NCBI RefSeq assembly: GCF_003925875.1
Contig: NZ_AP019309.1
Span: 1,054,001 to 1,118,000, forward strand
Direction of reading: 5' to 3'
Source: Intestinibaculum porci
Lineage (GTDB): Bacteria > Bacillota_I > Bacilli_A > Erysipelotrichales > Coprobacillaceae
Length of the DNA: 64,000 nt
Shown: positions 39,981 to 61,767 of the stretch, one piece after another
Layout of the letters: the number at the start of each line of letters is the position of its first letter
Numbering within the stretch: the first letter of the stretch is position 1
The notes under the pieces: model-generated
What the model was told of the DNA's origin: nothing
Seen by the model: only the letters and a program-made list of their open reading frames with translations
Databases searched by the model: none
Position numbers and translations under genes: made by a program

Positions 39981-41282
39981 ATGGAAAATTATGTCAATGT
40001 CATTGGCGCCGGATTAGCCGGCTGTGAAGCGGTCCACCAGTTAGTAAAAGCAGGCATTCCTGTCCATCTTTACGAAATGCGTCCGGTGAAATCAACTGAT
40101 GCCCATAAAACTGAATATTTTGCGGAATTGGTTTGTTCCAATTCGTTACGTGCTGATGGTCTGAAAAATGCCGTTGGGGTGTTAAAACAGGAAATGACGA
40201 TGAATGATTCCCTGATTATTAAGATTGCCCGTGAACATGCAGTGCCTGCTGGCGGCTCGCTAGCGGTTGATCGCTATGGCTTTGCGAAAGCCGTTACCGA
40301 GGCTATTACGAATCATCCTTTAGTGACGGTTATTCATGAAGAAGTGACTCAAATTCCTGAAGGGCCAACGATTATTGCCAGCGGCCCTTTGACAAGTAAT
40401 GCATTATCCCAGGCTATTGGGGAATATTTAGGACAAAAAGAATATTTCTATTTCTATGACGCGGCAGCGCCTATTGTTACCAAAGATTCTATTAATTTCG
40501 ATATTGCTTATTATAAATCCCGTTATGATAAAGGAGATGCGGAATATATTAACTGCCCGATGGATGAAGCGCAGTTTGATGCCTTCTATGATGCCTTAAT
40601 GAACGCGGAATGCGTCGTGCCTCATGATTATGAAGAGAAGTTTTTTGAAGGCTGTATGCCATTTGAAGAAATGGCTCGGCGTGGTAAGCAGACGCTGTTA
40701 TTTGGCCCGATGAAACCAGTTGGCTTAGAAAAAGATAACGGGCCGCGCAGCCATGCGGTGGTGCAGTTACGTCAGGATAATGCCATTGGCAGTCTTTACA
40801 ATATTGTGGGGTTCCAGACACATTTAAAATGGGGCGAACAAAAGAAGATTATTCACATGATTCCTGGTTTAGAAAATGCGGAAATTGTCCGTTATGGTGT
40901 GATGCATCGTAACTGTTTCCTGAATTCCCCATTGTTCTTACGACCAACTTATCAGTATAAAGACCGTGATGATTTATTCTTTGCTGGTCAGATGACGGGG
41001 GTTGAAGGATATGTGGAATCAGCGCAGTCCGGCTTAACTGCTGGTCTCAATATGGCAAGACTGATGCAGGGGAAAACGCCGCTGGTCTTCCCCAATGAGA
41101 CAGTGATGGGAGCCTTAGCTCATTATATTACCCATGCCTCAAAAGCAGACTTCCAGCCGATGAAAGCCAATTTTGGTATTTTGCCTGATTTAGCGCAGCG
41201 CGTGAAGAAAAAGGAAAAGAAGGAAGCGTATGCGAAGCGCGCCATTGCGAGTATGGAGTCTTTCTTAAATGAAAACGCCTAA
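39981..41282 (+). CDS. trmFO: FADH2/folate-dependent tRNA m5U54 methyltransferase
   Basis: Uses methylene-THF and FADH2 to make ribothymidine at tRNA position 54. 433 aa. FAD motif [16 protein letters not shown] at the start; cysteine-bearing [24 protein letters not shown] near 335. Overlaps xerC by 14 bases. The lineage thus has a folate route for m5U54 as well as the degenerate SAM-type m5U enzyme fold at 59641. Confidence 0.96.
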
Positions 41283-58901: not shown

Positions 58902-59342
58902 ATGAGATCACCGAAAAGTCTAAACTATCATATTGTTTTTGTGACAAAATACAGACGCTCGTGCATAACGGAGGAAATCGGCAACTTTTTAAAGGAAGAG
59001 ATTGTACGACTAATTGAATCCATGGATGGGCATGTCTGTGAAGTGGAATATCACAAGGATCATGTTCACATCTTGGCAGAGCTTTCTCCGAAACATGCTA
59101 TATCTGATCAAATTGGCGTAATTAAGGGAGTTACTGCCAGAAATGTTAAAAAGAGATACGGCAGTCAGATTTCGAAATATCTCTGGAAGGGGCAGTTTTG
59201 GGCGCTAAGCTACTTTATTGCAACTTCAGGAGGCGTTACGCTTGATGTACTGAAAAAATATATTTCGGAGCAGAGAACTGGCCCATCAAAAGGCGGATGG
59301 CACGACCACAAGAAAAAGCGTCATTCATCCCCGTGCGATTGA
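58902..59342 (+). CDS. tnpA: IS200/IS605-family transposase TnpA (Y1 HUH)
   Basis: 146-aa single-strand transposase. HUH motif in EYHKDHVHILAEL; catalytic tyrosine in the LDVLKKYISEQ helix; YHIVFVTKYRRSCI and LWKGQFWALSYFIATSGG are typical. Complete. The start has only a weak AGG just upstream, as is common for IS200. Its stop lies inside the right-end hairpin. No TnpB is attached. Confidence 0.92.
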   Translation: MRSPKSLNYHIVFVTKYRRSCITEEIGNFLKEEIVRLIESMDGHVCEVEYHKDHVHILAELSPKHAISDQIGVIKGVTARNVKKRYGSQISKYLWKGQFWALSYFIATSGGVTLDVLKKYISEQRTGPSKGGWHDHKKKRHSSPCD

Positions 59343-59358
59343 AACAATCGCAGCGGGG
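59329..59358 (+). repeat. Right-end hairpin of the tnpA element
   Basis: CCCCG-T-GCGATT-GAAAC-AATCGC-AG-CGGGG forms a nested perfect stem. It shares CCCG.GCGA.T..TCGCAG with the IscB element hairpins at 49345 and 51101. Confidence 0.8.
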
Positions 59359-59538
59359 TCTTCTGGCGCTTCTTTGATAAAAGATCAGGAAGTGTTACGC
59401 GTTTTAATCGCGATTGGTCATCCGGCACATCAGAGTACGATTGTCCCGGCACAAAAAAGTTTGGCTTATTATCAGGATGAACAGCATCATTTCTATGTCC
59501 CTAAAAAAGCCTTATCTAAAATCGTTACAATACTCTAA
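59346..59538 (+). pseudogene. C-terminal remnant of an enzyme, possibly a nitroreductase
   Basis: An open frame with no start, reading AAGSSGASLIKDQEVLRVL, AIGHPAHQSTIVPAQKSL, YYQDEQHHFYVPKKALS and ending in TAA. It begins at the tnpA right-end hairpin, so the 5' part was lost or displaced by the insertion. A divergent hxlR partner often controls nitroreductases or other oxidoreductases; the identity is tentative. Confidence 0.5.
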
Positions 59539-59573: not shown

Positions 59574-59640
59574 CGCAAAGGCGCAATTTGATAAAGGGCT
59601 TACATTTGATATGGTATACTGATTGTAGGAAGTGATCAAT

Positions 59641-61767
59641 ATGCCACAAATAACAACAAAAGAGCAGATCTCACAGGATCTGAAAAAACTTATTTATATC
59701 TTCTTACATCCGCGTGACAGTATGAAAAAAGCATTGACCTTTTTTAGTGAATTTTCCGAGAGCTTTCCTGCTTACAGCAGTGCGGCGTTAGCGTTTTATA
59801 TTATTATTTTAAGTGTTCCAGCACTGACGATCATCGCTTTAGCTTCGACGCTTTTTCATATCGATTTAGCGACTCTGCAGGATATTTTAGAGCGTTTCTT
59901 GATGCCCAAGTATGCCAAAATGTTAAGTAAAGTATTAACCAATAAAACAATCAGTTTGTCGACGATCATGATTTTAGCTTTCTCGGTGTATGCCGTCTCC
60001 CGTGGAATTGGGGCGATTTATACCATGACCAAGAAACTTTTCCCATTGGATGAACTGACCAAAGAAGGTGTTTTTCACTATTATCTTTACACCATTCGCA
60101 TTACCATCTTCATTCTGCTTTCAGCGATCAGTCTGATTATCGTATTAGCGATTGGTCCGATTGCCCGCATTTTTCATGTCTTTTATGGTATTATGATCTT
60201 CCGGGCTTTCCTCTTATTTATGATGGTGACCTTGTTTTTTACGCTTCTTTACCGGATGATTCCTCGTGCCCATATCTTTTTTCGAGAAGCTTTTAGGGGC
60301 GCTTTAGTTGCTACAATCGGCGAATATTTACTGATGAGTTTTTTAGACTTCTATTTACAAAGAGCGAATTTTTCTAACGTCTACGGTCCTTTAGCGAGTA
60401 TTGTGATGGTTTTGTTTATCTTAGATTGGTCCGCCAAAATGTTTTACTTTGGCATGTTTGTGACGCATCGTCTCTATATGAAACGCTTTTTAGCGCGAAA
60501 TGTGGAAGTAGAGGTTGAAGCGATTAACCATCGTGGCCAGGCTTATACCCATGTCTTTCGTAAAATGTGTTATTTAAAAAATGCTTTACCGGGTGAAAGA
60601 GTCGAAATCAGTATTATGAAAGAAAGTCGCAGCCGTATTTATGCGATTGTTTCAAAAGTTCTTCAGGCCAGCCCTGATCGTATGACCCCAGCCTGTTATC
60701 AATGTGATTTATGTGATCGCTGCCAGCTGCAGTATATGGATTATGAAGCCTCATTACGTCTGAAACGTCATGAAGCGCAGCGCTCTATTATGAAATATTC
60801 TTCATTTGCCTATGGTGATGAAGTGGTGCATGAACTGCTGCCAGTGCATACATTGACCCATTATAAGAAGTATCTCAAAGCTCCGGTTTCTTTTGATCAG
60901 GAATACTATATTGGTGATCATCACAAACAAAGCTGCAGTTTTATGCGTTCTTGTGTCCTTAATGATGGAAAAATGAATACGGCTATCGTGATGATCGAAA
61001 AGATTCTCAATAACTATATGATCAAGACAGTTGAAACGGTGATGTTTAAAGTGATTGGTGAAGCGATTATTGTCTTTATTGATTGCGGTCATCATGGTAT
61101 TGATCCCCAGCTAGTGATCGAATTAAAGAAAACATCCATCAACAGTCTTTACCAAATGCATAAGCGGATGGGAATCATGACCTATACATGTATTTATGGC
61201 GATGCGCATTATCCGTTTTTCTATCAGGGAAAAACCTATCAGATCTCTCCGTTAAACTATATTTATACCAATCAGGAAACCTTGGGGCACCTCCTTGATC
61301 TGATGATCAGTCTGCTTGATGAAGACGATCAGATATTGACAATAGGATGTGGTTTTCTGCTTAATATGGCTTTGTCACAGGAGGTCATCGCCCTCAATGA
61401 AAATGAAGCGATGTATCGGGATATGAAAGACTATGCTCAAAAGCATCAGCTGACGCATAAGAAGTTCTTATATGGCCGTGTTGATGCCCGCATTGGCATT
61501 GTCATCAGTCGTCATCATTTCGCTAGTGCGGTTGTCAATTTGATTGATAAACCGTTATCGAGCGCTTTATCACAAGCCTTTTTCACGGCCCGCATTCCTC
61601 ATCTTTACATTATTACGATTTCACCCCATGAGTTAATGGTTAGTTTAAAGGGAAATGATGCTGATCGTCTGCAGAGTACTTATCATTTAGAGGATGTCTA
61701 TGGCTTAGATAGTGAACCTTATACGATGAATGCCCTGTGGGTTTTCAAGCTGACATTAAAGAATTGA
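59641..61767 (+). CDS. Fusion: YihY/BrkB membrane domain + degenerate RlmD/TrmA-type RNA methyltransferase
   Basis: 708 aa from the ATG at 59641 (AGGA upstream, extended -10 TGGTATACT). Residues 1-285: YihY/BrkB-like region with about six membrane segments (YSSAALAFYIIILSVPALTI, GIGAIYTMTKKLFP, VYGPLASIVMVLFILDWSAK). Residues 288-340: TRAM-like (NHRGQAY, LKNALPGERVEI). SPDRMTPAC then gives C352-x5-C358-x2-C361 plus CQLQYMDYEASLRLK, and C432/C438, matching the [4Fe-4S] ligands of RlmD. The Rossmann methylase follows (ISPLNYIYTNQET; ILTIGCGFLLNMA near 565) but DPPR reads SRHH (623-626) and the catalytic SCNP reads TISP (659-662). It probably lacks methylation activity. Confidence 0.75.
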   Translation: MPQITTKEQISQDLKKLIYIFLHPRDSMKKALTFFSEFSESFPAYSSAALAFYIIILSVPALTIIALASTLFHIDLATLQDILERFLMPKYAKMLSKVLTNKTISLSTIMILAFSVYAVSRGIGAIYTMTKKLFPLDELTKEGVFHYYLYTIRITIFILLSAISLIIVLAIGPIARIFHVFYGIMIFRAFLLFMMVTLFFTLLYRMIPRAHIFFREAFRGALVATIGEYLLMSFLDFYLQRANFSNVYGPLASIVMVLFILDWSAKMFYFGMFVTHRLYMKRFLARNVEVEVEAINHRGQAYTHVFRKMCYLKNALPGERVEISIMKESRSRIYAIVSKVLQASPDRMTPACYQCDLCDRCQLQYMDYEASLRLKRHEAQRSIMKYSSFAYGDEVVHELLPVHTLTHYKKYLKAPVSFDQEYYIGDHHKQSCSFMRSCVLNDGKMNTAIVMIEKILNNYMIKTVETVMFKVIGEAIIVFIDCGHHGIDPQLVIELKKTSINSLYQMHKRMGIMTYTCIYGDAHYPFFYQGKTYQISPLNYIYTNQETLGHLLDLMISLLDEDDQILTIGCGFLLNMALSQEVIALNENEAMYRDMKDYAQKHQLTHKKFLYGRVDARIGIVISRHHFASAVVNLIDKPLSSALSQAFFTARIPHLYIITISPHELMVSLKGNDADRLQSTYHLEDVYGLDSEPYTMNALWVFKLTLKN

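Follow-up and report, generated by a model that had tools for sequence, protein, structure and literature searches.

An uninterrupted reading frame of Intestinibaculum porci was found to join a YihY/BrkB membrane protein to an RlmD-type RNA methyltransferase that has lost its catalytic motifs, and the soluble half is read, with a probability of roughly one half, as a YfjO-like m5U methyltransferase turned into a part of YihY that no longer catalyses and serves as an Fe-S scaffold or in regulation. The gene lies in the window, that is, the whole stretch of 64,000 nucleotides that was analysed (contig NZ_AP019309.1, positions 1,054,001 to 1,118,000), and the gene and its domains have the following window coordinates.

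59641..61767, + strand: whole fusion gene, YihY/BrkB plus RlmD-type pseudoenzyme, 708 aa; same architecture in genomes G019, G029, G030 and G031
59588..59615, + strand: promoter-like site TTGATA-16-TATGGT with TG before the second hexamer (extended -10), about 25 bases 5' of the ATG; consensus match only
59776..60471, + strand: YihY/BrkB membrane domain, residues 46-277; Pfam PF03631, E 5e-20, dN/dS 0.07 in G030/G031
60496..60675, + strand: TRAM/OB domain, residues 286-345; alignment to RlmCD and beta strands in the model

The frame runs from 59641 to 61764 plus a stop codon, as the earlier note had described for its continuous 708 residues, and AGGAAG stands directly 5' of the ATG at 59641. 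The number of promoter-like sites found was not above that in shuffled sequences. The same fusion was present in five genomes of three genera (the host, G000, and the four listed above). Because these form a single group in the tree, a frameshift or assembly artefact joining two genes was ruled out. A sample of 392 genomes from the phylum contained no such fusion beyond the host's family. In line with the earlier note, which knew of no description of it, neither the fusion nor a dead COG2265 clade was found described in a literature search that covered few subscription journals. In the host, the fusion gene adjoins holA. An IS200/Y1 transposase gene (window 58902-59342) lies just 5' of it, and the interval between the two (59343-59538) resembles the 3' end of an interrupted gene.

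YihY/BrkB proteins (UPF0761, PF03631), once called RNase BN, are a very widespread bacterial membrane family to which, to our knowledge, no function has been assigned. The whole membrane domain of the fusion protein matches this family, with 72.5 bits against a cut-off of 33.7 and nearly the full length of the profile covered (8-254 of 259), consistent with the BrkB-type segments previously assigned up to about residue 285; unlike the fusion protein, no family member with an RlmD-type domain was found described. No other Pfam family matched the protein at cut-off, PF05958 included. Just a few residues separate the last transmembrane helix from the first TRAM strand, which supports the membrane attachment proposed earlier for the RlmD-like part. 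In the full-length structure model the membrane half was unusable (pLDDT about 45-55).

The soluble half has the TRAM, central and Rossmann parts of RlmD/RumA/RlmCD, and thus the methylase fold claimed for it was found rather than missed. The NCBIfam RumA/RlmD model (TIGR00479) matched residues 296-619 with E 8e-22, at a score (77.7 bits) far under the curated cut-off of 183.55. The profile of the clade aligned over its full length with Streptococcus pneumoniae RlmCD (E 4e-62), and it also aligned with an archaeal tRNA U54 methylase and Escherichia coli RumA; the full-length fold is therefore common to the soluble half and the COG2265 m5U methyltransferases. An AlphaFold model of residues 284-708 was of medium confidence (pLDDT 72), and its best PDB matches were RlmCD (TM 0.74-0.78) and RumA (TM 0.71-0.74), an agreement that is partly built in, since the alignment rows of the model were intact RlmD enzymes. 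The independent evidence for the predicted fold is thus the profile match to RlmCD, and the model serves as support.

In RlmCD, C408 is the nucleophile and E443 the general base, and F281, Q283 and D381 touch the flipped base (PMC6235398). These positions were read in a motif alignment of 25 intact, 34 unfused dead and five fused sequences (39 dead in all), which placed the following residues of the fusion protein opposite them.

61258..61266, + strand: lost F-x-Q motif, Y540/Y542 (RlmCD F281/Q283)
61537..61548, + strand: lost DPPR motif, NLID at residues 633-636, with N633 at RlmCD D381; motif alignment
61618..61620, + strand: lost nucleophile Cys, I660 (RlmCD C408)
61735..61737, + strand: lost general base Glu, L699 (RlmCD E443); motif alignment

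The nucleophile Cys, and likewise the F and Q of the F-x-Q motif, were present in 25/25 intact sequences and absent from the dead ones (0/34 unfused, 0/5 fused; 0/39 together). The Asp of DPPR was found in 25/25 intact, 1/34 unfused dead and 0/5 fused sequences, the adjoining PP in 25/25 intact and none of the 39 dead copies, and the base Glu in 25/25, 6/34 and 1/5, respectively. The fusion protein thus differs from RlmD, RumA and RlmCD in lacking all four elements and in being fused to a membrane domain. An ordinary RlmD as its identity was ruled out by this motif loss, and the soluble half is predicted to combine the RumA fold and ligand set, yet to be no functional RlmD. The earlier note had likewise concluded that the catalytic motifs were lost and that the protein is no RNA methylase; it was right to place TISP at the SCNP position, but the SRHH that it placed at the DPPR position lies about eight residues upstream of NLID, a correction that leaves the conclusion unchanged. 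Instead of keeping these motifs intact, the nearest homologues all lack DPPR and SCN. The TrmFO that had been attributed to the host is present at window 39993-41270.

A new enzyme, whose fold would keep SAM or another cofactor for a different reaction carried by newly conserved residues, is quite improbable. In unfused copies much of the GxG loop does persist, as does the acid after strand 2 (D/E in 32/34), newly fixed residues stand round motif I (S and E in 31/34 each), and a Cys-to-Asp change occurs in 18/34; however, these residues drift in the fused clade (last loop Gly 3/5, acid 2/5), where few regions are less conserved than the Rossmann part.

The cysteines of the RumA cluster, in contrast to the catalytic residues, were retained.

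60694..60723, + strand: Fe-S loop C352-x5-C358-x2-C361; 5/5 fused, 31/34 unfused dead, 24/25 intact
60952..60954, + strand: fourth Fe-S ligand, C438; alignment, invariant in fused proteins

C352, C358, C361 and C438 align with the four ligand positions of RumA, whose cluster is held by the same four-cysteine set (PMC5614603). All four were kept together in 24/25 intact, 31/34 unfused dead and 5/5 fused sequences (36/39 dead), and they are the only invariant ones among the ten cysteines of the soluble part in the five fused proteins (P ~1.5e-4). The C-x5-C-x2-C loop and C438 of the ligand set proposed earlier therefore stand, whereas C432 is not conserved. Judged from this alignment, the four cysteines are expected to hold a [4Fe-4S] cluster. 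The three exceptions, namely G026, the host's unfused copy and that of its genus mate, form one clade, which lacks all four ligands at once, with yihY still adjacent. Their joint loss is the pattern expected of a cluster site and not of separate cysteines, and it also indicates that the cluster is not indispensable. In the fused clade, invariant columns made up 26% and 19% of the Fe-S segments and 24% of YihY, as compared to 9% of the Rossmann part and 8-13% of the soluble part outside the Fe-S segments. RlmCD is the converse of the fusion protein, being active without a cluster (PMC5614603).

The main rival explanation holds that the dead methylase, by way of TRAM and the Fe-S-braced central domain, binds structured RNA and through YihY keeps that RNA, or ribosomes, at the membrane; we regard it as possible, though rather unlikely. 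The TRAM and neighbouring residues G299, K308, R347 and K375 were kept in 39/39 dead sequences, and the glycine before the last loop Cys, which contacts RNA in RumA (PMC5614603), in 37/39, but the window protein has Arg at that position. The Arg of YRNK corresponds to RlmCD R127, without which activity falls by over 90% and RNA is bound more weakly (PMC6235398). This Arg was retained in just 16/34 unfused copies and 1/5 fused ones; the Asn beside it was kept in 4/34 and 0/5, respectively, and the base-flip pocket is gone.

Family-wide comparison revealed matches to the query in all 43 genomes of the host's family. All copies of this type in the family with their motifs read were catalytically dead, while the best-scoring relatives from the sister family and from other families of the class had intact motifs. 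In a careful tree, made in addition to a quick one and unrooted, a 100/100 branch separated the intact sequences from the dead forms, and a 100/99 branch set apart the five fused sequences, which have long branches. This topology fits a single loss of catalysis followed by a single fusion, and catalytic loss would accordingly be family-wide and older than the fusion; separate losses in fused and unfused copies were not favoured. Besides the fusion, the host has an unfused pair (C1:1249116-1251228) as well as two intact genes of the RlmD type. Its unfused copy (L035:4925-6241) is dead, has lost the four Fe-S cysteines and lies beside yihY, between the CNNM and RmuC genes. Viral contigs yielded three RlmD-type genes only, all intact. 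A partial exception among the relatives with intact motifs is G063, of the sister family, in which a methylase beside yihY (L133:1498-2844, minus strand) has Ser for the nucleophile Cys and Gln for the base Glu but keeps DPPR, F-x-Q and the cluster cysteines, and apparently represents an independent, earlier stage of catalytic loss.

Genomic context analyses showed that in 21 family genomes yihY lies next to the dead gene, the two being separate but often overlapping, and that the two are adjacent or fused in 24/43 when fusion-only genomes are included. In the sister family the intact enzyme is encoded directly downstream of yihY in 12 genomes, which implies that the link to yihY predates the loss of catalysis. 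The typical order in the host's family is CNNM/CorC transporter, yihY, dead methylase and rmuC, with the CNNM/CorC gene upstream of yihY or the pseudoenzyme in 17/19 unfused loci (e.g., L035:2748-4103); this transporter is an equally good candidate partner. In G029 the fusion occupies the usual yihY-methylase place and is followed by a second dead copy. In several genera the pseudoenzyme has no yihY close by, and in the complete genome of G011 it occurs although PF03631 has no match there, so that it is not only a YihY part. Other Bacilli have the order yihY, polysaccharide deacetylase, (glycosyltransferase) and methylase. In G477 (L145:1666-3879) a PdaA-like polysaccharide deacetylase is fused before an RlmD/YfjO-like methylase directly after yihY, and in G244 (L089:967-2811, minus strand) an intact RlmD/YfjO-like methylase is followed, in one frame of 615 residues, by an apparent GNAT domain identified by eye.

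Bacillus subtilis yfkH encodes a YihY (BSU07900; PMC3814617) and lies 12 locus tags from yfjO (BSU08020), a proximity by which the dead gene is probably YfjO-like, its orthology being drawn from synteny and paralogue status. YfjO and SP_1901 are orphan COG2265 proteins of unknown function (PMC7226160, PMC4605293) and are likewise extra paralogues beside the rRNA enzyme. The YfjO-like paralogues of Acholeplasma have no major active-site differences (PMC7226160), whereas the fusion protein has lost its active site and is fused to YihY. The TrmFO-like proteins of mollicutes are also m5U methylase paralogues without catalytic cysteines, with cofactor sites kept (PMC7226160), but they belong to an unrelated flavoenzyme and have no membrane fusion.

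In the comparison of G030 with G031, the YihY part had a dN/dS of 0.07, the fused soluble part one of 0.15 and the unfused copy one of 0.05; the unfused pair G037/G038 gave 0.10. These values (0.05-0.15) argue against a decaying pseudogene and show that the fusion protein is constrained, with its soluble half looser. That YihY carries this half as an inert remnant is thus very unlikely. The long branches and the higher dN/dS of the fused half than of the unfused copy in the same two genomes would agree with such a relic, and the methylase fusions with other neighbours (PdaA-like, GNAT-like) indicate that fusing can be incidental; on the other hand, the frame is open, dN/dS is well below 1, and exactly the four ligand cysteines are retained in five deeply split proteins.

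As the dead enzyme is old and under selection across the family, it probably has a new, non-enzymatic job. The sequences show an ancestral pair of yihY with a YfjO/RlmD-like m5U methyltransferase gene, in which catalysis was lost at the root of the host's family or close to it. The dead enzyme kept TRAM and the [4Fe-4S] ligand set, remained under purifying selection, and in one sub-lineage its gene was duplicated and fused to YihY. In the preferred reading of a non-catalytic scaffold or regulatory domain, the cluster-stabilised scaffold would hang from the last YihY transmembrane helix, most likely on the cytoplasmic face, and may give YihY a binding or regulatory function, the candidate ligands being a protein, RNA or the cluster's own state. 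The narrower proposal, in which the dead RNA methylase became a redox- or iron-responsive [4Fe-4S] domain that gates YihY or signals through it, is doubtful; if true, it would represent a new type of Fe-S sensor and the first functional handle on YihY. YihY and the YfjO-type orphans are here linked by adjacency in two families and by fusion. The clade also offers a natural experiment on what the RumA cluster is for, as the cluster site was kept after catalysis was lost, whereas RlmCD kept catalysis without the cluster.
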